Shown piece after piece: positions 12,812 to 62,808 of a DNA stretch of 64,000 nt. Within the stretch, counting starts at the first letter, position 1. Every line of letters starts with the position of its first letter. The stretch comes from Filosporella fistucella. Its lineage: Eukaryota; Ascomycota; Leotiomycetes; Helotiales. Below the pieces are notes generated by a model. It had not been told where the DNA came from. It saw nothing but the letters and a program-made list of their open reading frames with translations, and ran no database searches. Location of the stretch: NCBI GenBank assembly GCA_030077755.1, contig JAQJZZ010000011.1, positions 1,550,001 to 1,614,000 of the forward strand, read 5' to 3'. The position numbers were made by a program, and so were the translations under genes.

Positions 12812-14005
12812 ATGGCATCTGCAGAATCCGACTTGGTGAGATGCTACGACAATGGACGCGCACTCCATGCCAATATTGGTTTGAAAAGGACTCAGAAGAT
12901 GTGTGGCAATATGATCCCAGGCTCCAAGTCAGTGAAGAGGCAGGCATCCCCACCGGAGGGTTCTCGAGGTAGGAGGTCCAGATGCAGTATCATGAAGCCT
13001 TGCTAATCGTGGAATAGACCGGCCAATTGTGATTGACGATGATGTGGATTCGCCCAAACAGACGGCTTCCACTCAGGGACCAATCAACGAGAAGCACCGA
13101 ATCAGAAAAAGAGCCCCAAAAATGAGAGGATCACTTCAGACTATTAGCGAACCCCTAGATGTCCTTGGCCGATTGAGGGAGCTCGTGCGATCGAGTGAAA
13201 AGATTGTCGTCATTAGCGGGGCCGGCATCTCTGTCAGTGCAGGTTGTGAGTTGAAGCCCATTTGTAAATCCCTTCATCGATACTGATTTACCTAGTTCCC
13301 ACCTTTGAGGATATGCGGAAATCCAAACAGACCTCGTTCGACCGCTCTCTCTACTCCTCTTCCGACGAGATGACCAGCTTCCACTCCACAATCCGTGATA
13401 TGTGTGAACGCCTGCATTCGGATTCGACCGAGCCTTCACCTTTCCACAAGGTTATGGATGAGCTTGCGCGGACTCGCTCTCATTTTCGGCATTATACACA
13501 GAATATTGATTGCGTCGAGCGCTTGTTACCTGATCTCGACGCCAAGACGATACACCTCCATGGTCGAGTTGATCAAGCCCGATGCGGGATATGCAACTGG
13601 GTGTGTGAGTATAAGCCACATCTGTTCCAAGGGTCCGATTCGCTGTATTGTCAAAGGTGCTTGCAAAGAAGCCAGGCCCGGATATTAAAGGGCAAGCGTT
13701 CATTGAAAATTGGCAGGCTGAGACCCAATGTACTTTTATACGGCGAGCCTCACCCAGACGACAAAGAGATTCTAGAAACTGCTAAGCATGATTTGAGAAT
13801 ATGCCCGGAGCTGGTGTTGATTGTTGGCACGAAGCTAGCGATTCCTGGCGCTCGGTCGATAGCCGCAGACTTTTGCGACGCTGCCCGGAGCGTGGGTGGG
13901 GCAAGTTTTTGGATCAGCAAGGAGGAGCCAATGTGGAGTGTGAAGTCCCTGTGTGACTATGTTCTCATAGGAGATTGCGATAAGGTTATTCCCCTAGATA
14001 TTTGA
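12812..14005 (+). CDS. Sirtuin (SIR2-family NAD-dependent protein deacylase)
   Basis: Three exons (12812-12968, 13018-13245, 13296-14005) give a 364-aa protein; all junctions keep phase and use GT-AG. The Rossmann core starts with GAGISVSAGFPTF, where the second junction restores the expected GFP step. TQNID and HLHGRV follow, the latter holding the catalytic His. A zinc site CGIC ... YCQRC comes next, then RPNVLLYGE and LVLIVGTKLAIPGA. All residues expected for NAD binding and zinc are present, so the enzyme is probably active. Members of this type deacetylate histones or other proteins and release nicotinamide. The N-terminal 110 residues are basic and Ser-rich. Closest class by motif is the fungal nuclear Hst3/Hst4-like group, which is a guess. 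It is convergent with ferric reductase 1. Confidence 0.9.
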
Positions 14006-14294: not shown

Positions 14295-15878
14295 CTACCC
14301 ACCAGAGATCAAAGTACGTGTGAGACGCTGACCCTGAACTTCTACGTTGGTCAGTTCCTGTGTGAGCGTACTAGTGGCGTTCAAAGCCCCAAATTTCCAG
14401 CGTTGACGACCCCTCATCGATTCGCTGGATTTCTCAGGCCAGTCAAGCCCGTGGTGTCGAACGAACATGGTGTATTGAAAGACCTAGTCCGCAAGAGTTA
14501 GCTGTGTGTGCTATGGCACTAGTCAATAGAGCTCACAAATCGACTCCTTGCATTTTTCCAATCAGGCGTCTCCCTGTCGCATCGGTCTGCATCTTGATCA
14601 AGTAGCTTATGCACCATCTTGATAGCCGCGTCCCACGGCTCAATCTCGTCGACCTCCCACAGGAGACTTATCACTTGGGTCCTAGTGGGCCCTTGATCTC
14701 GGTCGTTGAGCAATTGCTTAATACATCCTAAATGAGCCGCAATGCCAATCCCCGATGCGAAGAGGATAACATTACCGTAATCCTCAGCCAAGGGTGACTC
14801 CCCGTATGGGCCTTCGAGGAAGGCTCTCACCGCCGTGGGTTGCGCCTGGAGGAGTCGAGTGAATCCCCTCCGCCGTTGGATGAGGGCAGTGATGTTCCTG
14901 GTCCGGTTATCTTTGTCCTGATCCCATGATGCTATGAAAAAAGGATGTGATTCATTGATGGAGAGTGCCGATGTAGAAGGAATTCGCAAGAAGACGTATT
15001 GGCCCGCGCGAACTTGACGAGGCTTGGCGAGGGTGATGTCAGCTTTTAGCAATCCATTTTCTTCGAAAATCCTGACTTCTGCTCTATTCCATAAAGAGAT
15101 TCCTATTCGAACTGTAATAAGTATGGCGCATAGCGAGCCTGCGATAATAAGGAGGATGATTGATGGTTGTGAAAAATCAAAGGGGGCGAGATGTAAGAAT
15201 ATCGCAACGATTATAGTGACGGTCAAGGCTATGTGGGTGTTTAAAAACAATTCATACGCATGACGTCGAACGAACGGCAATGAAAATATGCTCAAGACAG
15301 CTATGCTAGTAGCAGCCTGGAGCAAGTTTTCAGCATGGGAACTTTTGGCCAGACTTAATTTGACTTACAGTAAGACCTGCTACGCTTGATGCAGATGTGA
15401 AAGGACGCGTGCCAGAGCGCATCGGACTCAAAGCAGCTGTTAAGTGAACAGCACATTCGACTATAGCAACGATGCCAAGCCATCTGTGAAAGAAATTCTT
15501 AAACTGCGGTGATATGTGGATGCGTTCAGAGAACACGTTGGGTCTGCCACAAACTAAGAGCAAAATCAGATTAATCAAAATAGCTTCGCCGGATCGTTTT
15601 ATCAACACTGCTCGGTCGTTAGAGATGGCGATGACTGTGACATTAGTTGCTATTATAGAGAGAAGACCAATTAGATAGAGCGGTGTAGTAATGCCCATGC
15701 TTCTAAGGTATCGATGGAGTGGACGATCGAAGGCATATTTGCGAGCGAAGAACTTGAGGTAACGGGAGTTGATATAAGGGAGGGAGTTGTTTCGTAGGTG
15801 GTATTGTAAAAAGGCTAAGAATATGATCCCGAGGAGTGCACCTCCAGGGATAATCAGAGCGGCGGTTATGATATCCAT
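14295..15878 (-). CDS. Ferric reductase 1 (FRE-type transmembrane oxidoreductase)
   Basis: Three exons (15878-15369, 15316-14537, 14483-14295) give 492 aa. FRE proteins pass electrons from NADPH through FAD and two haems across the membrane to reduce Fe3+ or Cu2+. The N-terminal half has several hydrophobic helices, with FFHRWLGIVAIVECAVHL and RRHAYELFLNTHIAL carrying the paired haem-binding His residues. The cytosolic half has an HPFF motif for FAD, then GPYGES and FASGIGIA for NADPH. Exon 2 runs into a stop at 14519 if not spliced. A GTGAGC donor just before that stop and a CTAAC-branch/CTAG acceptor extend the protein by 62 residues. Ferric reductases are recurrent Starship cargo. The second one in the window is at 51624-53455. 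Confidence 0.85.
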
Positions 15879-16154
15879 TGTGTCTTACCCAGGAGAGGTA
15901 GTCCTGTGGCGTTTGAAGATATATAAAAACATACATGCAAAGCCTCACGGAAATTTATTCTTAGAAGCAACAACATTTGTACACAAATACTGTACGTCCA
16001 AAATTTACCAAGTTTATTTCAGGCAATTTGCCTTAACATAGAGCTAACAGGATCGATGGAGACATTAGATTACCTAAGTTAGCTTTAATTGGATAATCAC
16101 AAGTAACTTTGAGATGACAGGTCAGACCGCTAATTGATCTGTGTTGTTGTCTCT

Positions 16155-19268: not shown

Positions 19269-20256
19269 TTACCATTGGAAGGTATTTCGTTGCCTCTGGC
19301 TGACTAAGTAAGCGATTCCGCGAAGTCTGTCATTCTGAGAGATCATTTCATACTCTCCGCTACTTTTTGGCCAGTGTTCAAAGAGCAGTCGAGGCAGTAC
19401 GTCACGATACGCGTTGAAAGCTATCTCCTTCATCACAACAGTGTAGAAACTGAGCCACTCTACGTTGTCCGGGACACGGCTCTTCCCAATCAAGACATCT
19501 CTTAATATTTGTCCAACCGACCGAAGATCTCGTACACTAGTATTGGCCCTCACAGCTTCACAGAGATGGATATTTGCTAGATTATTCTCAGTATAATCCC
19601 AAGCGGCGATTTCCTAGGACTCACCAAGTTTAAATCCTTCTCCAGTGACTAGGACATGCTCAGTGGTGAAATCGCCACGAGACAGGTTGTGATCAGCCAG
19701 AAACTTGAGTGCGTTCAAGATCTCTACAAGTCAGCACAAGATATCACACAGCCTCTTTGATTTAACTTACATCTTTGCACATCCTGTGTGTATCTAAGAT
19801 AGACCATGGATATTGGGCTGCCGCAGCTGCAATGGTGACAGGTAATGGAGGTTTCGAGATATATAGCTCACACTGTCCTTTGGGATCATCCTCGTGGTCA
19901 TCGGCGTTGGTAGGTAGCCAATGGCTGATACTGGGGTTGCCATCATCGAAGCCGACAATATTGATATGTTTGAGTGTACGTAATGTGTTCCATTCGCTTA
20001 TGGTCTTCGAGACATTGATCTGAATGATGCCCGGTATTGACTTGTATGTTACGAGCCTTACTCGGATGCCCCCGAACTCGAAGCTACCATCAACATGATC
20101 GTAGTTGAAAGCAGGATCTGAGGCACTAGTTGGTTCCTTGGTGGCTAATGACTCCTTTCCGACATTTTGGTTTTGGTCTGTACCTGTCAAGCGCCATATA
20201 CCCGTGGCTCGCCTAGATATCCCTTCTGAGGTGGGCATCATCTTGTTGCCTTCCAT
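19269..20256 (-). CDS. Pseudokinase of module B
   Basis: Exons 20256-19771, 19721-19625 and 19576-19269 join in phase to give 296 aa. Kinase-fold landmarks are EWNTLRTLKHINIVGF (helix C to strand 4), YISKPPLPVTI (hinge), YPWSILDTHRMCKDILNALKFL (helix E), NLSRGDFTTEHVLV (catalytic loop) and FKLA where DFG should be. The loop keeps an Asp but the metal-binding Asn is replaced by His and the DFG Asp is gone, so phosphotransfer is unlikely. A possible extra 5' exon lies between 20290 and 20517 (acceptor TTCTACAG at 20275-20282). It is transcribed away from the DUF3723 gene at 21204 and shares only fold-level similarity with the pseudokinases of modules A and C. Confidence 0.7.
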
Positions 20257-20517
20257 TTGGCTAACGAGGCAGCGCCGGGTTCTGTAGAATCATAGTCTAT
20301 TTGAAGTATACCATAGAGTCAGCGCATATTTCAGATCGCCTACGGGTTCGTGGCAAATTGATGACAGCTGACTCTTCGTCATCAAAACTTTGAGAGGACG
20401 GTGCTCGCTCCGATTAAACTGCACGATTCGCTGTCTGTGCGCTGATTTGCTGAAAAGCACCCGCTTATCACGGGCCGATCCGCTAACCTTAATTAATCCT
20501 AGCCAACCCTGCTTCAC

Positions 20518-21203
20518 TCAAGACAGTGCCTGTTTGGTCCACCACTTTGCCGACAGTCTGAGCAACAAACATGAAGAAGTAATTACGAATTATTGATAAG
20601 TAAACTAAGGGCTTAATCTACTATCATATCTCGTGGAAGTTTGCACGGTGGGAAAGACAAGAGCTGTGGACATTAGATTGCACGTGACCCAATCCCGATT
20701 AGCGACATATTATGGTTTGAATATTCTACTGGCGAAATACTGAGAACTGGATGACATTTGGGTGAAAGATTCTCTGCCAGAATATTTTGTCTTGCAAACT
20801 ATTCTACTGGCGAAATGCTCTAGCAGCCTGAATATTCCAGCCCACAAACTATTCCTCTTGGCGAAATACTCTGAGATCTGGATGACATTTGGGTGAAAGA
20901 TTCTCTGCCAGAATATTTTGTCTTGCAAACTATTCTACTGGCGAAATGCTCTAGCAGCCTGAATATTCCAGCCCACAAACTATTCCTCTTGGCGAAAAAT
21001 ATGAGATTTGGCTGACATTGGGCACAACATTTTGCTGGCAGAAAATTCGCTCTATTAAAGTAGCGGATGGCAAACATTATTATAGTCCAGAAATAGATTC
21101 TAGTCTTGGGGGAAGATACAAATGCAAACAAGTTATAACAGCCACTAAATCCACATGTTGAAACTATGACCTACCTACCTCTGTCTACGAGTAAGTATAT
21201 GAA
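20518..21203. promoter_or_regulatory. Divergent spacer of module B
   Basis: This stretch lies between the outward-facing pseudokinase and DUF3723 genes of module B and must contain both promoters. Its centre is filled by two copies of a 131-bp repeat, so upstream elements may be duplicated. A TTGCACGTGACCC word sits near 20679. The promoter role is inferred from gene orientation. Confidence 0.45.
20747..20996. repeat. Tandem duplication, 131-bp period, two copies, in the module B spacer
   Basis: GATGACATTTGGGTGAAAG, TTCTCTGCCAGAATATTTTG, CTCTAGCAGCCTGAATATTC and CACAAACTATTCCTCTTGGC appear at about 20750 and again at 20881, almost without change. Half-units (ATTCTACTGGCGAAAT, AACATTTTGCTGGCAGAAAA) flank the pair, so the array was longer or is still growing. 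Confidence 0.85.
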
Positions 21204-24200
21204 ATGTCTAGCCGGACAGCGTTACCTAGTGATGATGCGGAATACATGGACCTCTCCCGCGAGACGGCGCACCTCGGCGTGGCCCTGGTCAGGCTAGAGA
21301 ACCTATCATATCAACCTCCTGAAGGAAGGCCTCGAATTCTCCTTCAGCCAAGAAAGACCGAGTACTGGCTAAGAGAATTCAGGCTTCGAGGATGCTTTCC
21401 GAATTTGGGCGGAAACCGTATCAAGGCCGAAATTTCTCAGCCGGTTCTTGCTGCCGCCCTTGCTTGGTCCGAATTGACAATTAGTGATCTTCAAGACGCG
21501 GGGCACATCAAACGTCTTCACTTTCCGGAAGGTGTTCTTTTGACACATTATCATGGACAGCATCGATTAGAAGCTGCAAAGCAGCACATTTATCCGCACA
21601 ACGAGTGGTGGGCGGTGGAGCTCTATGATAAAGGTATGTAGAAGCCTTCAAAACTGATATAATTGAATCTCATAGCAATATAGAGAGATGGGACAACAAG
21701 TGTCGTGTGCAAGAGCAAGACCGTAATATCGAGTCGATTCCACATGACGATGGGACCGTTTTCCGATTCCTAGATGCGGAGCCTGACTGGAGGACGGCGT
21801 GGCGGTCGAAGGACGCGGAGAATGACCTCAAAGCCATCGAGAAGAGACCAGCTTTGTATAAAGGCTTCACATCTCTAAGACCATTTGTCGGTCTCTGGGC
21901 ATCTTTTCAGAAAGGCACCTTGCACCGGTATAAATCGCTCAGATGTGACATAGTAAGCATATATCTCTAAGCGTGTGCGACGCTAACATGCCACCTCAGG
22001 AACTGATACGATATTTAGATCGCATTAAGCACGTTTGGACTGCTATACTTGACGGCGACGAAGAGCTTATGTATAACCTAGATCCTGAAACCGTGGAGCT
22101 GTTTGAAGGGAGGGCCCCCAAAACTTCATCAGCCGACAGAGACTTCATCACCCGAGCTATCGAGAGCAGAAGTGCATTTCCTTTATTGTGTGATGATGTC
22201 AAAAGATTGCGACTGCGACAGAATGTCGTCGCTGTTGATGGGATGATCCCTTCGATTAAGACGCTCGCCAAGGATTCCTTGTACCTCGAAGACTGTGCAA
22301 AAGCGATGCGGACACTCATCGACCCAACAGAGTGTCATATGAGAGAGGCAATTCAACACATGTGGCGTGGATATGGTGGAGACTACATAGTGTTGGAGAG
22401 TGCTGATGGGGTCGCCCAATATAGCGATATACAGACGGGCGACGAAGAGAGGTTTGAGATAGCATACGTCCAATTATGGATGTTCTCTATGCGCAATTTC
22501 TATCTACTTACGAACCTCGTCCCGAAGTCGGACAACAAAAAAAAGGTGGCTAGTACTGGCCCAGATCCTCAATGCCTTCTTGAATTTGCCAGGCTCGCAA
22601 ACGCCCTTGGATTCAGGTCCGATGCAATCACCAGCATTCTCAAAGCTGACGCGGATCGGGAGCATGCCAGAAATATGCTCACAATAGCTAGGCCGCTGGG
22701 CAGGTACGATTATGATCTCGAATCAGAAATCACTGGCCACTACCAGCTTCTAATCCGCATCCGCGCTAGGCAGCAAGAACTCCTGGGGCCGCCTGTTTGG
22801 ACAACCACGCTCTCGAATGTCAAGGTGAAACAACGGTATGGGAGGCCGCATAACCAGGCGCTCAAAGATTGCGCTCCTTATTTCTTTGTGCGTAATATGT
22901 GTGAAATACCAGAGAGTGGTAAGTACGTCACAGATTTATTTGTCAAGCGAGGTATTGCGCTTTCTTTCTTTCGCATCCCACCACTACCTCCTGAGGCTAC
23001 TCGTCGTGGCAACAAGATGGAAGGGGTAGCTGTGGATGGTCGTGGTACATCGCAACAGCAAAATCAAGCGAGTCGAGCCCATACGAGCACGTCAGTCAGG
23101 GATGTAGCTCAAGATGCCGCATTCACACCACGCCTAGAAGAGTGTGAACGACAGGTCGTGGAACAACAAAGAGAGATCTCTCATTACAAGGTAAAGTTGT
23201 CAGAGGCTCAAGCGAATTTTGAACGACTACTTGGCGAGGTTCAGCCAGGCCGGAACAGGATTGAAGAATTAGAGGCTATCAACCTTGACCAGTCACGCAA
23301 AAATTCGCAAGGACATCTCGAGTTGGCTGAGAAGCTGCGTCAGAGCCAACAGAAGATAGAGGTTCTTGAAAGGACAATTGCAGGTCACGAATCTGCTCGT
23401 GAAATGCAAGTCGTACAAGCAAGGCAGCACCAAGATCAACAAGAGATGGCGGTTGAATTGGAGAAATGTCGCTTGATGATCGCGGAATTCGAGCGTAGGA
23501 CCTCGGAGTATAAGTCTGAGAGTGACAGGCAAGCATCAGCGGCAGAGACATTGCGACAGCAGCTTGCCGCACATTCGCAACAAGCAACAACAGAAATAGA
23601 AGCACTGCGGTCGAGAGTTGCTCATTGGGAGAGGGGTGACTTACGAAGGCCGGAAGATATCAACGCCGGGGCAATGTCTCAAGGCTTCCAAGAAAGAGTT
23701 GCCGAGTTAGAACTCGTTAGTCAACGGCAGGCCGAAGACCTAAGGAGCTCCAAAGAGGTGGCCACTATCAAGGGCAGGACCCTGGATATGATACTTGCAA
23801 AGATCAAGGAGACTAGAGTAGGAGTGGAGAAGATGAGTACAGCCTTCATAGGACGACTCCAGCTTGATCAGAACTATGAAGACGGTGATTGCGAGACTAT
23901 CCACTCAGATGAACTTCAATTTGAAGATCTTCCTGCGGCGAGAGCGCAGTCTGATGAGATTGAAGACCTAAAAAGGTCGATCGCCAAGTTCATTGCTCTC
24001 TATAGCCAGAATAACCTAGCGTATGACGAAAATACTCGCGTGAAGATTCTCGAATGGCAGAAGCTGGTTCCGGGTGACCGGCTCGCCATCGCAGAGGGAA
24101 CAGGAACAAGCGTCGAAAAAGAGACCCCTGATCTCAAGCAAATGCTGGCAGTCGTAAGCAAACGGGCTGGAGTCTTAGAACAAGAAGATCAGGCTGTCCA

Positions 24201-25425
24201 TGACCTCCAAGCAGAACTGGATATGGCGAGGGCAGCCGCCGAGAGCCAACGGCAAAAGGCAGAACGTGTCAAATGGCTCGAGGAGGAGCTGGTAGAGGTG
24301 AAGAAGCAGTTGCAGCAAGAACAATTGGCTACTAGGGAACTCGGAGAAAGCTTGAAGACAGCACACGCCCTTAAAGGAGAACTAGACACAGCCAAGGCAG
24401 AGAACGGAGTGCTACTCCAGCAAGGGAAGGCAGCTATTGCAGAGCTCACAGCAGAATTGAATACGGTCAAGGCAGAGGCTGAAACCTTGCGGAAAGAGGC
24501 AGAACGAGTTCGTGGGCTGGTGACAGAATTGAATGATTTAAGAACAGCATTGCAAGCGACAGGCAGCGTGCAAGCGGAACTGGAGAAGACGAGACAGGAC
24601 TTGGAAGACTTGAGGCAGGTATCAAGCTCGTATATTAAGGATCTGAAATCAGCCAAGGCCGAAGTTGATAAGAGGTCAGAGAGCTCGAAGAGTCAAGTGA
24701 CCGGCCTGGAAAACGACTTAGAAGCAGCGCGGAAATCTATCAAGGAGAGGGAAAGAGAGTTAGCAAGCCTGAAGCTTGAGATCGATGATGAAGACGAGCG
24801 CATAAAATCATTGAAGGCACAGCTATTTGAGACGAACCGCCTGATACAGCTAGAGAGAGAGGAAGAGAAACTCGACGCCGAGCAGAAGGAGATCCAAGCT
24901 GCGCTAGCTGCGGCAAGAGCTTCTAGTAGCCAGGATCTTGGGGAACTCCTGCAGCGGGAAGCGCTTGTCGATGCCAGTCTCTCACAAGTTGAAGAAAAAA
25001 TGGTTGAAGCGGGATTAGATGTTATGAGATATGCAAAGTATAAAGTACGCTTTGAAAGTTCCAAAACAGGCCGCCAAACAGGCGTTGACTATGTGCTTGT
25101 GGAAGACCTAGAGAAGAGATTTGAGGAATTGCGTGATCAGGTGGTTTATTGTTTCGTAAACGATATTATGACGGTGGTAGAGCTCGAAAAATACAAAGAC
25201 TTCTTAGCAAATCGGAAACATCTCGCCGACCACAGGGAATTCTTTTACTGTGGCTACAATCCACCTCGGAAGAGACATCGCGGTCTGGATGATGCGGCAG
25301 AGGATTCGAAGAGTATGGCAGGACCCAGAACTCGAGAACTAGCAAGACTTCGCGCCAAGTCCAAGCTATCTTCATTTTCATCTCCCTCTGTATTTGATTC
25401 GAGGCAGGAGGGGGATAGGTCGTAG
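21204..25425 (+). CDS. DUF3723 protein with a long coiled-coil tail (copy B)
   Basis: Exons 21204-21633, 21684-21952 and 22000-25425 give a 1374-aa protein. The N-terminal domain (residues about 1-150) has LLQPRKTEYWLREF, then LHFPEGVLLTHYHGQHRLEAA, then WWAVELYDK, the core DUF3723 motif series. A conserved block follows (TVFRFLDAEPDWRTAW, LYKGFTSLRPFVGLWASF, LIRYLDRIKHVWTAIL). From about residue 600 to 1200 nearly everything is heptad-rich coiled coil (Glu, Lys, Gln, Ala, Leu). The last 60 residues carry a basic RKRHR. The second intron sits at the same place as the GC-AG intron of copy C. Function is not established for the family. It starts head-to-head with a pseudokinase gene. Confidence 0.85.
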
Positions 25426-41739: not shown

Positions 41740-42865
41740 TTAACCCTGCTTAAATCGCCAGCCTCGGTGAGTAGTGACTGCCGACAGTGCCACTATCCAT
41801 TTAAGATCCTCGTCCCTCCAGTCGCAATCTAGAAGTGGGTGCTATTGATGTTAGCATGGCGCATTGTTTAAAAGGTAGGACCCGCTCACAGACAAGAGCT
41901 GTTCAAGCGACGTCGCCGACGTGGTCATCGCCAGAAAGCCAACAGCATTACCATCGGAAGGCCAGTGGTCGAAGTCCTCTAGGCCAATCGACCCGCTACT
42001 ATTGGGATATTTTTGCATGAGCTCCATAGCTACATACCCTAAGGCCTTCATGTCTCGTGTGGGGGACGTGAGCTTTCTGCACGATCCATGACTTGCTATT
42101 TAATGCGTAAGCACATATTCGGAGCATCAACATACAACTCACTAAGTTTGACTGTACCCTCAGCGTCAAGAAGGATATTGGAGCATTTGAAGGGGCCCGG
42201 TTCTAAACCGTTTGTCGCAAGATACGCAAGACCATCAAGGATCTTTATCAGTCAGCAACTGGGAATTACAGGTCCAGAATACTCACCTGTCCCACTATTG
42301 CCGCCAGCTGAATCTCGGTGAGGAATGGAGGAGAGCATGCAATGTGTGCTAGGGAGACCGGGTCATACCCAAAAATCACAAAGTAGGAGTCTTGGAAGCC
42401 GAAACATTCCAGCATCTTATGTAGGTTTCTGTGGCTAAGTGATTGTAGCATGCGGAGCTCGCCAGCACCCTGGACGTGCTTCATAATGAAAAGGTCGTGG
42501 GGAGTGTCCCGTTCAGAAACAACAATGACGAAGCCACCCAGACTCAGCTCGTAGACTTGCTGGTAATGATCCCATGGGCACGCCCATACTGTATCGGGTA
42601 CGTCAACAGCAGCCTTATCATTCAGTACCAGTGCCTGACTGTGCGGTACAGGTTTGGCTATAACGGCAGAACTTGGGGTTCGACCCTCAGAGTATCCCGC
42701 AACAGGGTACGTTTTCATCGGAGATGCCTTCCTCCTCTTAGAGCTTGGTATTACCTCGTGGATGGGTAACGAGCGCTTTGACGTTTGGGTTTGTGGTATG
42801 GATTCGATTGTAGGCACAAGATCCATATCGATCTGCGTGTGGCGATTTGGGACGGTGGAGGTCAT
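41740..42865 (-). CDS. Pseudokinase of module C
   Basis: Exons 42865-42287, 42242-42143, 42095-41890 and 41841-41740 join in phase to give 328 aa. The N-terminus (NRHTQIDMDLV, basic KRRKAS) matches that of module A. Kinase-fold parts are LFIMKHVQGAGELRML, LSHRNLHKMLECFGF, IFGYDPVSLAHI, then ILDGLAYLATNGLEPGPFKC with SNILLDAEGTVKLT, then MKALGYVAMELMQKYP and HPLLDCDW. The catalytic-loop equivalent GPFKCSN has no Asp and KLT replaces DFG, so it should not transfer phosphate. It could act as a scaffold or regulator. It is divergent from the DUF3723 gene at 43174 across 308 bp and appears intact, unlike module A. Confidence 0.8.
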
Positions 42866-43173
42866 GACGACCAGTGTAAAGAGACAAGAAAGTGTAAGGA
42901 AGAAAATCGAAAGAAGACGGAAAGATCTGATTGATGAAGCGTATGCGACCTTGAGATTTTGTGGGAGATGTCTTGAAGAGTTGGCAGTCAACTTAGTAGC
43001 AAGATGGCGCAAAACCACCGAGGGCCATGTAGATGATCCCTTTTGGAACCCGTCGATTTTGGAGCATCCATTTTAGGATCCCACTCAGTAATGGCCAGGT
43101 TGGCGTACAAGTACGCGTCCCAGTTCTAGAAGAAAGTGCACTCCTCTAGCCTGCAGAGTATGACTGTGAAACC
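42866..43173. promoter_or_regulatory. Shared divergent spacer of module C
   Basis: Only 308 bp separate the start codons of the pseudokinase and DUF3723 genes, so the two promoters overlap or are shared. No obvious repeat is present, unlike module B. The role is inferred from gene positions. Confidence 0.5.
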
Positions 43174-45857
43174 ATGAAACATTCTCAAGCTTCATTGGAA
43201 GACTCAAGACTTGAGGCGGAGAGACGGCGGACATTCAGAGGATCCGCACGCATCAGCCTAGATGTGCTCCATTTCGAGCAGCATAAGCACAGGAGTCTCG
43301 ATACGAAGCATGTCGAGTATCTGAAGGGCTGTTTTCGGAGAGATCGATGTCGCCGGTTGGAAGTGCGAAATCATATCGAGGCAGATATCGATCAACAGAG
43401 TCTTGATGTTGCTCTTCGTAACTCGGACGTCACGGCGCACGAGCTCCTCACTAATCAGCCGAACGGATATCCGCGGTTGGTGTTTCCGCAAGGTTTCGAA
43501 CTCGAGTGCCTTCATGGACAACACAGAATCCAAGCTGCCCGAGAGTTCCTCCTCCCCACTGACAAGTGGTGGACGGTCGACCTCTATACCTCTGGTGAGT
43601 CCAATTCCTCTTTGCCTAGATTCAAAGCTAATTCCCTCCGCCAGATCTCAACGAGGACCTTAAAACATGCCTCAACGAGCAGCATTCCAACGAGGACCGA
43701 CCGACCGATGGCGAGGCCTATTGCAAGATACGGTACTACCATTTCCAACGCGACACGAAGGCGGAGATGCGATGGAAGGCCTGCCTGCGGGGTTGTAGGC
43801 TGAAGAACTTGAAGGAACTTCTCGAAGACGAGGAGCTGACGGCTGCGTTTGACGCCTTATTGGACATTCCAGGCGTCTGGGACGGCATGAGGCTGACGAC
43901 TCTACAAAAGATGATGGCCATGGGCTGCAAAGACGCGAGCAAACCCTCTCTCTCTCTCTCTACAGCATGTACTAACCCTCGTTCTATACAGGAATGCCTG
44001 AATTACCTTCGCCGAATCAAGGAGGTCTTTTCCGGTCTAGTCGGGGAAGCCGCCCTAGGGAAAATTGATACAGCGACAGTAAAGGCCCTAGAACAGAGGG
44101 CACCAGGCGCATCAACATATGATTTCAATGAACTTCGAGGCGGGAAAATATTCAATGCATTCAGCGACCGCGAACGCGACAAGATCTGGGAAAGATTGCG
44201 GATGGTCGATGGCCTTGTGCCATCTCTCTTTACCTTTTTCAGGGATATCCAATATCTCAAGCTCTGCATCGATTGCTTGAAGCGTTTGGTCATTGTCCCC
44301 AAACGTGAGAGTGTCTGCGAGACTCTTGCACGCCATTACTCGGGGAAGAACCAAAGGGAAGGCCATGTTAAAATCCAAATCACAGAGGACTCCTTCCTGG
44401 ACCGAGCTGGAACCCCCGCAGACCGCACAGACCTGGGGATCCGACAGCTCGTTGCCCTGGCCATGCGCTACTACCCCGATATGCCGGCAGATCCGGTCCG
44501 AGGAGATCCAGTACGGAAAGCAATTACGAAGGCAGATCCTGCCGTGCTGCGGAACCTCGCCGATCTTGCATACGATTTAGGATTCGATACCCCTCAAATA
44601 CGTTCCTTGAAGCGGTATCTGGGCTTGACTAAGCGACATGACAGCTCGTCATCACTCCCTCTCCTTGTCACATCTGGACCCGGTGTGGCAATGTCTCACA
44701 GGTCTGGTATTCCCCGCCAAGGGGCATACGAAGAGGATCGGGACTCATTGTTCATCAATCACCTTCACAACGAACAGCAGCATCAAGGTGAGGGCATTAC
44801 GTCCTTCTTTGTCCGCAAATCTGTATATCTTGCCTTCTTTGGTAGACCAACCAGCACAAATGGTGGCTCAGCGCGAGGATCCAGTCCCGACGTGTCTAAT
44901 TTTCCCGAACGGCCGACTAGAGCTGATACTCAAGGAGACCCTGGAGATACGGAGGATATTGACGACATTTTGTCCTCTTATGCTCAACATGGCGATGATC
45001 GGGCACAAAATTCCGCGGATATGATTGCAAAAGAGCAGGGGAGGGAGGAGCGAGAGAGGCAAGAGAGAGAAGGCCAGGAGAGAGAGAGGCGGGAGCAGGA
45101 GAAGGAGAGAGAGAGGCAGGAGCAGGAGAAGGAGAGGCAGGAGCAGGAGGAGAGGTCAGAGCGGGAGAGGGAGGAGGAAAGAGAGAGAATGGAAGAGAGA
45201 AAAAGGTTGGATAGGCAAAGGCGGGAGCAGAGGTTGGCACAGGTGGAAGCTGAACGTAAGAAACAAGAGCAAGAACGTCTGGAAAGAGAGCGGCTGGCGC
45301 AGGAGCGATTGGAGGAGCAGAGATTGGAGGAAGACAGGAGAAGGCTAGAGGAGCAGAGGTTGGATGAAGAGAGGAGGAAGCTAGAGCAGAGGTTGGACGA
45401 AGAGAGGAGGAAGCTAGAGCAGAGGTTGGACGAAGAGAGGAGGAAGCTGGAGGAGCAGAGGTTGGAAGAAGGGAAAATCGGCATCAACTTCTTCATCCGT
45501 GAAAGGGGCTCTTGGAGAAACTTGCCGCCAATAAACGTTAACCTAGGAGATCCATCCGAAATCGAACGAGTTGCAAAAAAATACATGTGGAAAAATATCC
45601 GAACTTTTAATACAAGATTGGAGCTTCTACCCCCTCAGCAATGCTTCCAAGCAGTCCTCGACGATAGGACTCAAACTATTCTACTAGTTCCACAGGATAA
45701 TCTTGGGATCGATGAGGAAATGGTAGAATCCGCCCGAAAACTTCATGCGGAGGCGAGACGAAGGGTTCTTGGGTTGAAGCGCACAGCTACAGATGATATA
45801 TCTCAGACTTACCATATACGGAAGATGCAGGCTCTAAATCCAATAGGGCATAATTAG
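43174..45857 (+). CDS. DUF3723 protein (copy C)
   Basis: Exons 43174-43594, 43645-43934 and 43992-45857 give 858 aa. The N-terminal domain has FRGSARISLDVLHFE, EVRNHIEADIDQQSLDVAL, VTAHELL, LVFPQGFELECLHGQHRIQA, KWWTVDLYTSDLNEDL and CLNEQHSNED. A conserved block follows (EAYCKIRYYHFQRD, MRWKACLRGCRLKNL, LLDIPGVWDGM), then ECLNYLRRIKEVFSGL. The second intron starts GCGAGC rather than GT but has a CTAAC branch site and CAG end. Residues about 585-690 are a Glu/Arg-rich helix with 11-residue repeats. The C-terminal domain (INFFIRERGSW, VAKKYMWKNIRTFNT, LLPPQQCFQAV, TILLVPQ) is a separate conserved unit. The gene looks intact if the GC-AG intron is spliced. Confidence 0.88.
45350..45470 (+). repeat. 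33-bp in-frame tandem repeat inside DUF3723 copy C
   Basis: The unit encoding EQRLDEERRKL (11 residues, 33 bp) is repeated at least three times with near-identical DNA. The purity at DNA level shows recent slippage or unequal exchange, so the length probably varies between strains. It lengthens a predicted single alpha-helix. Confidence 0.8.
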
Positions 45858-50420: not shown

Positions 50421-50894
50421 TCATGATTCTTGAATCGTATAGCTTCTTAAATCGTTCTTCTTCTACACACTATACCCTTCTACAAACTTTCTTCTATGTA
50501 TGCTCATCTTCTTGAATTTCTCTTCTGGCAGCCTTCTTCTTCCAGGCATGATATTCTTCGGAAAATCTTCTTCTGGTGAGAGTGCATAGCTAGAAGTTCC
50601 CGTGAGTGCTACCCAGTACCAATCCTTGGAGCAATTGAAGAACGTAAGCTTTCCCGCCCTAGAGAATCGAGGATATTCGGCTAATCAAGAACAAGCACGA
50701 TTTTCTTCCCAAGGAACCACTTGCAAAATGTATGTTTTCTGTGCTATAATCGCAGCAGGTACGCACTGGGATATTTTGTCGCTTCCATAGATTCAATTTT
50801 GATAACAAATGTTCACTTATCTCTTTTACTAGCCAATAGCACCGCCCCAACCTACCCGTGACTCCGACCCAAAATTCTGGAACCACAATATAAA

Positions 50895-51185
50895 TTGGCC
50901 CAGAGTTCAAGTGGTTACAACGGGTTACTGTGCAATAAGTAGTTATAGAACGAGTTATTGTGGAACAAGTAGTTATATAACAGGGCGTTGTGCAACGGGT
51001 TGTTGTATAACAAATGGTTGTGTAACGAGTTATTGTGGAATAAGTAGTTATGTAACAGGGCGTTGTGCAACGGGTTGTTGTACAACAAATGGTTATGCAA
51101 CGGGCTATTGTGCAACAAGTAGTTATAGAACGAGTTATTGTGGAACAAGTAGTTATGTAACAAATAGTTGTGTAACAAGTTATTA
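50895..51185. repeat. 15-bp minisatellite with a 75-bp higher-order unit
   Basis: About 18 units of the form TGTGCAACGGGTTGT or TGTGGAACAAGTAGT follow one another without breaks. A block of five units (75 bp) repeats, for example from TGTGGAACAAGTAGT to TGTGTAACGAGTTAT. Because 15 is divisible by three, several frames stay open on both strands; I do not consider them genes. Confidence 0.85.
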
Positions 51186-51623
51186 TAACCAACGTACTAC
51201 CTCCTAGAGTAATGCCGGGTTATCAAAAGATATTCTACCCAAGCTGCCCCATACGCCATTCCAATATCTAACACAACATCTAACGCTTGAGATGCCTATA
51301 GGGTAGGAAAGAAATATTGAAATAATTCTCCTCCATAGTCCCAACATAGGTCCTGTCATTAGTGCAGTATCCACCACCTGAAGGTCCGATAGGAGGACTC
51401 GAAGGAGTTAGTAATCTATCGTCTTTCGAGTCAAGAATTAACATACCAGTGCATCCTTAGTACCCTTTGCCTTCTTGGCTGCGATTTAGGCTTCCGTGTG
51501 GTGAGCGTCACATAGGTCTCATCTCAAGGCCGCAGGTAGGGTCGAAAGCAGCTATTAGGTCCTCGTTTGAATGGTTTTCTATTTGTCTATCTACTTGTGG
51601 CATAAGTCTACTAATATCCGATT

Positions 51624-53455
51624 CTACTTCGGCTGATAATCCAATTCTACCAAACTGACACCCTCCTCAAGATAGTCTCGCGTTAGATCCCGCATCTGAT
51701 CTCGGATATCATTATAGCCAGATACTTTCAGTTTGTTAGCCCTAGCCCGATCCCAGGATACAAGTGACCTACCTGTAACAAGCATCCTGCCGTCTCTCGC
51801 CGTTGTCGTCAGACTCCTAGACTCAACGTCCTCTACATTGGTCATGAGAATCTCTGGTTCCAATTCCCTTATCCCATGCTGTATGGTATCAACCTCGGGC
51901 TTCCGAATATGCTTTCCCAATACCTCCTCAAGAAAGATCCCCGACAGTGGCGCTACACCTGGATAGATCGTCGCACGTTTGCCGAACGGGAACGTGGGGA
52001 TATCATTGGATTCTAGATAGATCGAGATGGAGAGAATCTGAAATTTTTTAGACTATACCACATCAATGAGGGCCTAGAGACTTACACAGCCATCATCTAA
52101 CTTGTCATCCTCTAAAGCATCATTCAAGAGTGACTGGGCTACTACTGCGTCGGCTGGCCTTGTCAGTAATCAGATGAACGCCGCTTCTGGAAACTTACCT
52201 TTGTGTCGGATCTGCCAGACCAGATGAATCCGGCGAGCCTGAACCCGGCGAGAGTTGTAGCCATAGATTAAACTCTTCAAGTACGGCAATTGCGTCGCGA
52301 TGCCGAAACCGCTCGCTACCATCAGGATACTCTCATACTCGTCCATGGCAACACTTGTTCCATGAGGACCACTAAACAGGACAAGATAATTCGTAGCGTG
52401 TTGTTCCTTCGCATGATATAACAGATCGCGAGTCAGACCTCTCTGGGGCTCGATAAAAAGCTCGATGGTGTGCTGCTCACCAGGCGTCCACGAGATCACT
52501 ACGAATGGATGGCTCTGCAGGAAAGCGCCGAAGCTAACAGCAGGTATCCATAGGTTGATGTAATTACCCGGAGCAATCTCTAGAGGCTTCTGAAGCTGTA
52601 TGCGGACCTTAACTGCACCATTGTCGTGCATAAGTGTCGCGCGAGAAAGATGATAGCGGAAAACTCCATTATAGAATATGACACTGCCAGCTTGCAGGAT
52701 AAGCATAGCCACGTATAGTCCTGCAGAGATGCAGATATAACCGCGCAGGAAGCGTTCGTTGGAGGGTAGATGTTGCCATATCGCATAAGTCAAGAGAATT
52801 GCAAGTGCTTGGTGTGTACGAAGGAATATCTCATAGGAGAGTCTGCGGACAACAGGGAATGAGAGCAGAAGGAGAAGACCAAGCGATGACCCTCCCTGAA
52901 TGATTGTTAGTTCTTGCTGTCGGCTTGAGGATGGATACGTACAATTACAGCAAATATATTTCGCATATCATCCAACGTGAAGGAGACTGTAGATGTCACG
53001 ACAACGAGTACGTGCAGCAAGCAGAGCAGAGACACCGCAGCGCCTGCGGAGCGGTGAATGAGCCGTACTGTTTGCAAAGAAATCCCAAGAAGATCTGCGA
53101 GAAAGGCGTGATGAGCGCCCGCGAGGAGAGGGATAAGTGTAATCAGCGCGAGGGTTCCGGCTCGAGACCCTGCTTCCGCTATTTTGGACCATTCAAGGCT
53201 GAAGGGGAAAATGGAGACAGTGAAGATAATACAAAAGAAATTTATCGAAATGAAGCCAATCTGTAAGGCTACACCTGCTCGGGTCCATGGTCCAATAAGT
53301 CGATGTCGACGAAGGAGGTATGGATATGCGAGATGTTTTGATACGAGGACTGACATGTACCCCGCGAATCGAACAACGTAGGGATGAAGACGGTAGAGAA
53401 GCAAGACACAGACGATGCCGCCTGCAGTGATAGCGCATGCTGGAATAATATCCAT
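51624..53455 (-). CDS. Ferric reductase 2 (FRE-type transmembrane oxidoreductase)
   Basis: Exons 53455-52943, 52895-52199, 52153-52086 and 52037-51624 join in phase to give 563 aa. Helices in the first half carry GAHHAFLADLLG, RLIHRSAGAAVSLLCLLHV and YEIFLRTHQALAI, which supply the paired haem His residues. The FAD site has SHPFVVISW and the NADPH site GPHGTS and MVASGFGIA. The C-terminal part after the third intron (KRATIYPGVAPLSGI ... LVSWDRARANKLKV) is longer than in ferric reductase 1, so the two are paralogues from different subgroups and not a recent duplication. The enzyme would reduce extracellular ferric or cupric ions before uptake. The adjoining deaminase is transcribed in the same direction, beyond a 725-bp gap. 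Confidence 0.87.
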
Positions 53456-54180: not shown

Positions 54181-56005
54181 TTAACCATCTATTGTGACTT
54201 CCTCCCATACGATCGAGATGCAGATGAGTCTCCTTTGAGCAGTCCGCAACTGGAATATAAGCTCATGTGAGTCATGGGAGCAGACTATTTTGAGGTCCGC
54301 TGTGGTGGGAATACTCTCCACCTCGATAATATTATCGTATTGGTTTAATGCACTACTATGCTCGATCTGTGCAACGGACAGGCGACCCGAGAGAACCCGA
54401 AGAAAATCAAAGGTAAGAGAAAGCGTGCCTAGCTCCAAGTAGAGTGACGGTGTTGTTAGGGAAACCAATCGGCTATATGGCAGATCTTTATCTTTGATAG
54501 TGAGAAGAGAAATCTGATCTGGGATGGGTGCACGCTCTGTTTTTAAATTGCTTTCGTTAACGTGATCACCTTGCGAAGGCGATGTCGGTGGAGTTAGAGG
54601 CTGCGCTCTGTATTGGGACGGACCTTCGATCGGATACTTATCGATCAATCGAGACTGAGATCGAATTGGAGATATGGGAGCTTGGCCTGAGATTTTAGTA
54701 GAAATATTTGAGAACGACCAAGATGCGAGCGGGAGCAAGATGCTCTCATTAGGATAGTGATATCGTTTCTTCCTCTTCGATCTCGATGCCCTTAGGGCCC
54801 TGCCATCTATCACCTCTTTCAGCAGGCTGGAAATGCGTCTGAATTCCCCGGCGCGGTCTTCCGGAAGGTCTATCCAGTCTGGCAAGATCCAACTGGCGTA
54901 GAGCCTGCCGTGAGTCCGGGGCACATAGAAGCCGCCGTGGATGGAGAAGAATAGATTGCATAGGTAGCAAGCACTCTTGCTTGAGCAAATAAACCTTGGG
55001 CGTTTTTGGCTTGGATGCACCTCATAAAAGAAGAGGAGCTGTATCTCTGCGTGGACTCTCCAATGTGACTCTGATAAAGAGGCAGGCATGGGGATCTGAA
55101 ACGGCTCCACGTCAATGCTTTCAAAGACGCGATGAGCCCTATACCTGGCAGCACAGACGAGCTCAGAAGCAGCAGAGTAGTATCGGCCCAACTTCCCAAT
55201 AGCTTCTGGTATGTATGCCTTCAATGTTGGGTCTATCATCGAAGTCTGAAGAGCTAGGCCGAGGTCAGTGGCTAAGGAGAATGCGTGAATCTGCTTCACG
55301 ATCTCCCCTACTACATCTACCACTCCCCCCAGTTCGATGATATCCGCGATAGGATCGGCTATACCCTCAAGCCTAGTAAATAAAGCTCGCAGATCTCGTA
55401 CTCTACACCTGCTTTCCTTGATTTCCTTCGTCGCTCTAATTGATCGATCGTGCATCGCATCATGCAATTGTTCGATGAGGGGTCGTTTTCCAGCAGTCTT
55501 TCTTGTAATTTTCGCATGACGAGATCGTAATCGGGATAGAATTCGGTCAAGATCTAGGCTAACAACCTCTCGAAAGGCTGCTTCAGTATCTTCAGATCTA
55601 GAGCGCACTGAAATGTAAATTAGCAAGTGGTTAGAAGAAGATGAAGACCTAACCTCGCTGTGCGGCATGCTCCAATGCTCTCCCAAGCCTGACGAACCTC
55701 GCCGTAACTGTTGAGAGATCTCCTGTGTTTGCGGCTACCCGAATGGTGAGTCCTTTCCCATTGCAGTGTTCTTCAACGCAAACAGCCATGACTTTGAGGC
55801 TATCGTCCGAGGTAGCAGAGAGGAATGCTAGGTTGCACGCAATCTCCTTCTCGCGCGAAACGCTTAGCTGACGGGTCGAGACAATCTCTGGGCTAATAAA
55901 ATTCTCTCTCGGTATCTCAGGGAGCTCGTCTAGTTGTCGAAGCTTGATGATGGATTGCTGCAATTGCGCGCGGGTGATTTCGCTTCCCCATAACGTTGTC
56001 TCCAT
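54181..56005 (-). CDS. OTT_1508-like nucleic-acid/nucleotide deaminase-fold protein
   Basis: Exons 56005-55654 and 55607-54181, with a 46-nt intron, give about 592 aa. Residues about 310-390 hold the zinc-binding core: RVHAEIQLLFFYE (HAE with the proton-shuttling Glu) and FICSSKSACYLCNLFF (the Cys pair), then HGGFYVPRTHGRLYASWILP. This pattern is that of the OTT_1508-like family of deaminases, a group related to bacterial toxin deaminases and widespread in fungi. The natural substrate is unknown. The N-terminal 250 residues are helical. The C-terminal 200 include a Ser/Pro-rich linker (PLTPPTSPSQGD) and a small domain. All expected catalytic residues are present. Confidence 0.8.
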
Positions 56006-61316: not shown

Positions 61317-61835
61317 TGTAAAATCCGTCAAAAGTTGAGGTAAGAGGAAGAAAAGCCTCTGGCGCAAGGAAACACCAAATATCAGCAAGGATTGGGAACA
61401 ATCACCCTTGTTTGTTCCCAATCCTTGTCGTTCTCTAAACCCACACGCTAGAGTACTTCCGGTACAAGCCCATTCACTATTTCACGGGGCCTAGCCGGCC
61501 GGCCCAGGCCGAGCCTCAGTGCTAGCATCTCATTGGTTTGTAAGGTGGGCCCACTCAGTCGTCATTCCATTTCTGGTCAGAAATGGAAGCATTATCCATT
61601 TGAGAAAGTACTGTCCATTGATAGATCGGTTGCCTCTGCTTGTACGTCGGGCTCACTTCTATGTATAAGTAGATGCTGTGGAACGAGGCAACCTGCAGAC
61701 GCCCTCCTCATCTTACCGTTACTTTGTTGGTTCGCCTTACCTCATCTTCTCACCGATCATACTGGACTGTTTCTCACGCTGTTCTCGCTGGTAGGGTGAA
61801 AGATTCACCAGCCACCGTATTCCTTTCTATGCACA

Positions 61836-62407
61836 ATGACTGGCAGTCTCTGCACTACGATCTCTTCCAAGGGTCAGAATCCAGTCGAATCTACGATCAC
61901 TCATGAGACGACAGTTACTGCTAGCACGGGCGGTAGTATCGAGGTGGTAAGCGTGACCGTATGTTCTGCGACTAGGATTTTCTTGCAATGAGCTGACCGA
62001 TAGGCTAGTACGAATTCAAGATTCTGTCAGAAATATCGCCCGATGTCTTTCGAGTCTCGGGAGATAACCAAGCTACAGACATCAACTTGGACCAACTTAA
62101 GACTTGTTTGTCTGGGGTTTTGCTCCTTGTGGAGTATGATGGCCAATTCAGGAGGCTATGGACCTGGTTGTGGAAGTATGGGTTGAGCCGAGATATATTT
62201 GGTTCCATCCATCTAGCAGGGGATTACCCAGTACTGTCCGGACTCGGGCGTGGCTATATTCTTCGTGGTTCTGCCCGTGAGATGTATGTCGGTGAGAAGG
62301 TCTTAGACAGGAAATGGGCAGGGAGGCTTTTGATTCAACAATACTACAAGCGGTCATTAGTTTTCAGATATATTTGGCAAGATATTCATGCGGCACTTGC
62401 ACATTAG
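61836..62407 (+). CDS. Unrecognised two-exon protein (169 aa)
   Basis: Exon 1 from ATG 61836 gives MTGSLCTTISSKGQNPVEST and a Thr-rich stretch. The intron GTAAGC ... GGCTAG leads in phase to exon 2 at 62009: YEFKILSEISPDVFRVSGD, LSGVLLLVEYDGQFRRLW, LWKYGLSRDIFGSIHLAGDY and LSGLGRGYILRGSA. The exon 2 reading is continuous and looks protein-like. No signal peptide or known domain is seen. Further exons after 62407 are possible. Confidence 0.5.
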
Positions 62408-62808
62408 GTAGACTGGATCCTCAAATCAATGCGATTTGGGGAACGCTAAACCTGCATTTGTTCAACATATCAGGCCCAGGTGAAGCGCTCAGCACTCGGA
62501 AATCTGGTCATGGATGTTACACAGAGGGATTTGCATGAGAAAACACGGTTGGTCTGTGTTCTAATTTTCAAGCGCTACAAGATCCGCAGCTGACAGTCCA
62601 CTATATAAAATGACCTGGCAAACTCAAGTGACTAGCATTCATCCAATTTGATCACAGAAAATTACATTCTTGACGAGTCAGCGGAAGACACAGCACCTGT
62701 AGATTTGGGAAAACTCATTCAATTGTGTCTCCATCTTTGCTTTACTGGGACGACATATATTTCTTAACCTAATCTCCAACCACCAAGACGACATCAGCAA
62801 CGGTCACG

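Follow-up and report, generated by a model that had tools for sequence, protein, structure and literature searches.

Starships, giant mobile elements that reach about 700 kb (accessible text of PMC12134995), carry a set of recurrent genes among which DUF3723 (PF12520) is listed, in the accessible Starship literature, as a hallmark gene without a known role. Other mobile elements encode relatives of ParB, DNA clamps gated by nucleotide, through which the element is regulated or segregated (accessible text of PMC12704722). Here, we analysed a 64,000-nucleotide stretch of the Filosporella fistucella genome (contig JAQJZZ010000011.1 of GCA_030077755.1, positions 1,550,001 to 1,614,000; hereafter the window, G000:C10:1550001-1614000), together with the whole genome of 45.77 Mb in 19 contigs, and found that DUF3723 is one half of a conserved, divergently transcribed two-gene module, the other half of which encodes a pseudokinase, and that the N-terminal domain of DUF3723 is predicted to have a ParB/sulfiredoxin (ParB/Srx) fold.

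The original prediction placed three head-to-head modules in the window, at 1-1588, 19269-25425 and 41740-45857, with spacers of about 331 bp, 0.7-0.95 kb and 308 bp; all three were recovered, the spacers measuring 331 bp (copy A), 947 bp (copy B) and 308 bp (copy C), and, as it had also stated, both genes are open in copies B and C in hand-built models and the kinase of copy A is broken. In copy C, a pseudokinase of 328 residues lies at 41740-42865 on the minus strand (exons 42287-42865, 42143-42242, 41890-42095 and 41740-41841); this four-exon model, guided by the Xylogone relative P0002, is open with GT-AG introns, and a shorter three-exon model matches the Pkinase profile at E = 3.6e-12. 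Across the spacer (42866-43173), the DUF3723/ParB-like protein of 858 residues runs on the plus strand from 43174 to 45857 (exons 43174-43594, 43645-43934 and 43992-45857) and matches PF12520 with E = 9.4e-140 (467 bits vs a cut-off of 22). Copy B comprises a pseudokinase of 296 residues at 19269-20256 on the minus strand (exons 19771-20256, 19625-19721 and 19269-19576; GT-AG introns and no internal stop), a spacer at 20257-21203 and, on the plus strand at 21204-25425, a DUF3723/ParB-like protein of 1374 residues (exons 21204-21633, 21684-21952 and 22000-25425; PF12520) with, by sequence appearance, a long coiled coil. Its kinase is identical to Phialocephala subalpina PAC_18359 in 87% of aligned columns, and its DUF3723 protein to PAC_18360 at 74% (BLASTP), or in 86% of aligned columns. 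Copy A has decayed in both genes: a DUF3723 N-terminal remnant with about 92 matching residues occupies 1-245 on the minus strand (ATG at 245) and continues left beyond the window (own-genome match C10:1549949-1550239; 39.5% identity over 86 residues to exon 1 of copy C by tblastn), and beyond the spacer at 246-576 the kinase, at 577-1555 on the plus strand, shows frame changes near 850 and 1215 by eye, matches the Botrytis relative P0013 at 57% (tblastn) and retains a legible FEHGSLTCSNILL where the HRD loop is expected.

At the genome level, a scan with PF12520 returned six loci above the cut-off, namely copies B and C and the modules D, E, F and G outside the window, and copy A, absent from these, was found with the DUF3723 protein of copy C as query. 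A divergent kinase-fold gene stands upstream of DUF3723 at all seven loci, with a gap below 1 kb at six of them (300-947 bp); the ATG-to-ATG gap is 325 bp in D (C15:1.682 Mb), 300 bp in E (C9:2.087 Mb) and 710 bp in F (C5:56 kb). The DUF3723 gene of G (C7:2.751 Mb) is degraded, with 13 stops within its best matched span, introns included, and about 6.2 kb separates the DUF3723 match from its kinase partner (C7:2744116-2745060, minus strand); the intervening stretch, low in GC and high in TpA/ApT, is taken for an inserted, mutated repeat. DUF3723 scraps at C15:1672690, C9:4287583 and C1:1570077 were left out of the locus count. Conversely, three kinase-family pieces without DUF3723 occur, at C9:2236 kb, C10:2421 kb and C11:997 kb (9.5 kb around each inspected), and all are decayed, judged by stops or size. 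Chance pairing, which had been called unlikely for the three window copies, was rejected because all seven loci are divergent, and no DUF3723 locus lacking a divergent kinase neighbour was found in this genome. Recent duplication of a larger block is unsupported, as copy C resembles the 9.5 kb around D, at the nucleotide level, in the two genes alone. Among the matches listed, within the length limits of the search, no single protein fused DUF3723 to the kinase, and one scan of viral contigs with one protein query returned no further pairs. The earlier observation was right and understated, and the pairing is a conserved module.

The module is also found beyond this genome. By protein, the nearest named relatives belong to Leotiomycetes such as Xylogone, Rhynchosporium, Phialocephala and Pseudogymnoascus. 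Among 39 database relatives of the kinase (the weaker matches P0040-P0043, two of them named as ordinary kinases, were dropped), seven, six from named Leotiomycetes and one from a metagenome, have a DUF3723 match on an equally long contig, and in four of these seven the kinase and DUF3723 carry consecutive locus tags; the database entries are cluster representatives without gene context, so that the remaining 32 give no linkage information. In Aspergillus oryzae, the accessible table of PMC6237848 lists on one scaffold a ferric reductase (g4155), a protein kinase (g4156), DUF3723 (g4157) and DUF3435 (g4161); its sole DUF3723 gene thus adjoins a kinase, the table giving neither orientation, kinase family nor comment, and this places a kinase beside DUF3723 in a second fungal class. 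Linkage and divergent orientation are kept between pairs that are just about 18-30% identical (29% for the DUF3723 proteins of D and F), and the DUF3723 and kinase of the pairs co-vary. Linked genes would co-vary by descent alone, and one apparent partner swap was noticed, in Pseudogymnoascus (P0007/P0071, VE00_07894/07893), where the kinase is nearest that of D and the DUF3723 nearest the C type; both would suit ancestral neighbours duplicated together without any joint function. We consider such hitch-hiking improbable, since divergent linkage survives below 30% identity while the flanks are unshared in the stretch compared, since kinases without DUF3723 in this genome are decayed, and since the kinase stands beside DUF3723 in the second class too. 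The linkage kept across this divergence, in other genera and in the Aspergillus table, together with DUF3435 genes near six of the seven loci, gives good support to the proposal that the two genes work as a pair and have spread with mobile cargo.

The predicted ParB-like fold of DUF3723, obtained from a structure model, is the most informative new element. The model of the Xylogone relative P0044, which is 87% identical to copy C, is good (pLDDT 83) and contains an N-terminal ParB/Srx-type domain with a conserved GxHR motif, which sits at a strand-to-helix turn (residues 115-118 of P0044) and is retained, as box II GxxR, in 21 of the 24 DUF3723 rows that keep most of the N-terminus. When this model was compared with the PDB by Foldseek, the first 22 matches were ParB, Noc, KorB, PadC or sulfiredoxin, none of them strong by itself, and SerK and SbnI were also among the structural matches. 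In copy C the ParB/Srx-type domain is predicted at about residues 20-160, and it is followed by a helical region, then by a coiled coil and finally by a C-terminal part; the helical region stands where ParB would have its helix-turn-helix domain, and structural alignments across it have a root-mean-square deviation of 8-9 Å. The C-terminus after the coiled coil (for example window:45478-45690, plus strand) is small and conserved, with a beta-grasp-like pattern by eye. Weighing against a ParB relationship, the ParB profile PF02195 matched none of eight DUF3723 proteins at E <= 10 with HMMER filters on. A profile link to a solved structure was not obtained either, the full alignment matching in the coiled-coil part and the N-terminus alone giving one unconvincing match. 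DUF3723 is not filed as ParB proper. Like KorB (plasmid RK2), BisD (ICEclc), VirB and Noc, it combines the ParB/Srx fold (predicted here), a GxxR box and a mobile-element context, has no ParA-binding motif (0 of 79 DUF3723 matches, many of them partial) and offers its coiled coil as a dimerisation candidate; unlike them, it is eukaryotic and known from sequence and model, and its partner is a divergent pseudokinase, not ParA.

The same fold would also suit a sulfiredoxin- or serine-kinase-like, ATP-using enzyme of metabolism or redox chemistry that does not bind DNA, as sulfiredoxin, SerK and SbnI, which use ATP, share the fold and a GxHR-type motif with DUF3723 and appear among its structural matches. 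The sulfiredoxin motif is GCHR and that of ParB is GERR, the former being closer to GxHR. However, DUF3723 has Q, L, K, R or W at the position compared, which we take to be the catalytic cysteine of sulfiredoxin, large additional helical and coiled-coil segments set it apart from those three proteins, and mobile-element genes are unlike the company of a housekeeping enzyme, which together make the enzyme explanation very improbable.

The partner appears to be catalytically dead, to judge by the residues at its motifs: among the 39 kinase relatives neither HRD nor DFG was found (0/39 each), with the catalytic loop reached in 19. The sequence at the HRD loop is LEPGPFKCSN in C, LEHGALSCSN in D, LYHGELSCCT in E, ISLKGLNSSK in F, LSRGDFTTEH in B and FEHGSLTCSN in A. 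The kinases of C, D and E are above the Pkinase cut-off, and F is below it (25.7 bits vs 31.7, E = 8.9e-6). The B kinase matches the kinase profile weakly (E = 0.078), as do its relatives P0025 (0.019) and P0030 (0.27), and P0026 and P0017 give no match; a profile comparison gave 3%, and the structure model of the B-type kinase is weak, with structural matches in kinase rows only, and was too poor to assign the fold by itself. In all five open kinases one intron precedes helix E and another follows the VK[IL]-type strand, each conserved in phase, and the second exon measures 97-103 nt; the five DUF3723 genes likewise have intron phases in common; GC donors occur in the first intron of the F kinase and the second intron (GC-AG) of the C DUF3723 gene. 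Pairwise similarity of the B and E kinases to that of C is very weak, and some partners may therefore have been recruited from different kinases. An N-terminal R-x-T-x-[IV] motif, found in 22 of the 39 relatives (C-type, Penicillium and B-type), may be a docking peptide. The partners resemble protein pseudokinases in the kinase fold, in the replacement of HRD by HGxL-type or RGD/RGE loops and in the missing DFG, and differ from them in a short C-lobe (by sequence), the N-terminal motif and the DUF3723 neighbour. Named database relatives are uncharacterised fungal proteins, except a Botrytis entry labelled FAD-binding. In one predicted Pseudogymnoascus protein, P0001 (V493_00088, 556 residues), two pseudokinase domains of the partner family occur together, as tandem genes or a true fusion.

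The DUF3435, DUF3723 and ferric reductase genes together point strongly to a Starship-type giant element as the probable carrier. The distance from DUF3435 to the module is about 19 kb for D and 53 kb for F; for C it is 24 kb, for B 44 kb and for A 68 kb. A weak match lies 69 kb from E, and none was listed near G. Six kilobases right of the window, and oriented into it, DUF3435 matches C10:1619921-1621075 (minus strand) within a recombinase-like gene at L011:5468-8313 (G000:C10:1619468-1622313, minus strand) that, by eye, shows cysteines and histidines of a zinc-finger-like kind towards its end. B to G are above the Pfam cut-off for PF12520, with DUF3435 and ferric reductase genes nearby, as in Starships; in the accessible literature DUF3723 is a single gene of unknown function, whereas here it is half of a divergent pair with a predicted ParB/Srx-fold domain. 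The two genes might then be auxiliary transposition factors, DUF3723 helping the DUF3435 recombinase to locate or synapse target sites or the ends of the element under regulation by the pseudokinase, as DUF3435 lies near D, F and the window copies and as the accessible text of PMC10128009 repeats the suggestion that insertion depends on DUF3435 and DUF3723 as mediators. Nevertheless, one stretch holds three different modules, Gaeumannomyces Starships lack DUF3723 according to the accessible literature, and the DUF3435 regions beside D and F are 86% identical over 3.5 kb and accompany very dissimilar modules. Module and recombinase thus vary independently of each other, and we regard a transposition role as unlikely. 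Since the DUF3723 proteins of D and F differ as much as they do beside such similar DUF3435 regions, modules appear to have been exchanged between related elements.

Considering the fold, the pairing and the context, we give about even chances to the proposal that Starship-type giant elements carry the module as a nucleoside triphosphate-gated, ParB-like DNA-binding switch with a pseudokinase partner. DUF3723 would bind nucleotide through its ParB-like domain, with the GxHR phosphate-binding-type motif, dimerise via the coiled coil and load on element DNA in the manner of the mobile-element ParB relatives KorB, BisD and VirB; once loaded, it would control element genes, silencing or retention. 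The pseudokinase would stand in for ParA and, as a partner protein dedicated to DUF3723, would set the switch or read its state through physical interaction. The regulator named in the original prediction fits the ParB-like fold, and its other suggestion, an antidote with an effector, found no direct support in the family searches. In such a toxin-antidote or meiotic-drive pair, one protein would harm cells or spores that lose the element and the other would protect, so that the element is retained; tight divergent pairing, the mobile context, repeated copies and a broken A beside open B and C are compatible with it, and notable genes of Starships include the Spok spore killers (accessible text of PMC12134995). 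Against it, DUF3723 relatives had no convincing match to toxin, nuclease or antidote families in Pfam, PHROGs, NCBIfam and PADLOC, their weak matches lying for the most part in the coiled coil, and a scan of the kinases, made against Pfam only, gave kinase-type families almost without exception. We know of no toxin with the ParB/Srx fold, and the decay of the three kinase pieces without DUF3723 disfavours a free-standing antidote; we hold such a pair distinctly unlikely.

A bolder form of the switch proposal, which we advance tentatively and with more doubt than belief, is that DUF3723 would be the first ParB-type nucleoside triphosphate-switched DNA clamp of a eukaryotic transposon, serving with the pseudokinase in segregation, retention or element-wide control of Starships and, in some elements, loading on arrays of repeats within the divergent promoter of its own module, much as plasmid ParB does at centromere-like sites. 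In the F spacer (L006:5571-6155, G000:C5), an 18-bp unit (GTGTACAAACTGAGTAGG) is repeated in tandem about 33 times and takes up most of the length, and all 19 near-exact genome matches listed for this unit lie there. The B spacer has a 131-bp unit in 2.2 copies at 20730-21019 (TRF), and both exact genome matches of its 20-bp core fall inside that spacer. These arrays are candidate loading sites and are kept as a lead because the other four of the six spacers have none; the 308-bp C spacer contains no repeated 11-mer, and no common motif or palindrome was found across the six, shared 10-mers being at letter-shuffle level.

Other features of the window include two ferric reductase-like genes, typical Starship accessory cargo (14522-15884 and, on the minus strand, 52173-52967), an OTT_1508-like deaminase domain protein (54184-55734, minus strand; PF14441) and a Sir2-family domain (13268-14002, plus strand) in an element-like region. 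A repeat-rich stretch right of copy C (50603-51453) recurs after module E (L004:1534-2660; 75-87% identical in pieces) and includes the last 90 residues of the E kinase model, whose end is therefore doubtful. A further 0.8-kb segment at 61661-62495, probably a repeat, is 89% identical to L013:8280-9116 on the D side (C15).

Neither the DUF3723–pseudokinase module, a link between Starships and ParB, nor a ParB-like reading of DUF3723 was found in the searchable open-licence literature, and the accessible text of a 2025 survey of the ParB fold, which gives sulfiredoxin as the commonest eukaryotic form of this switch fold, contains no occurrence of DUF3723 or fungi (PMC12704722). In conclusion, the back-to-back pair suggests a two-gene control device carried by giant elements, in which DUF3723 may act as the clamp and the pseudokinase may control it. 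Given a predicted fold, a motif of nucleotide type and a protein that regularly accompanies it, the role of DUF3723 becomes testable biochemistry, and the module is a candidate answer to how Starships of up to about 700 kb are regulated or kept; if true, mobile elements of eukaryotes would be among the carriers of the ParB switch fold.

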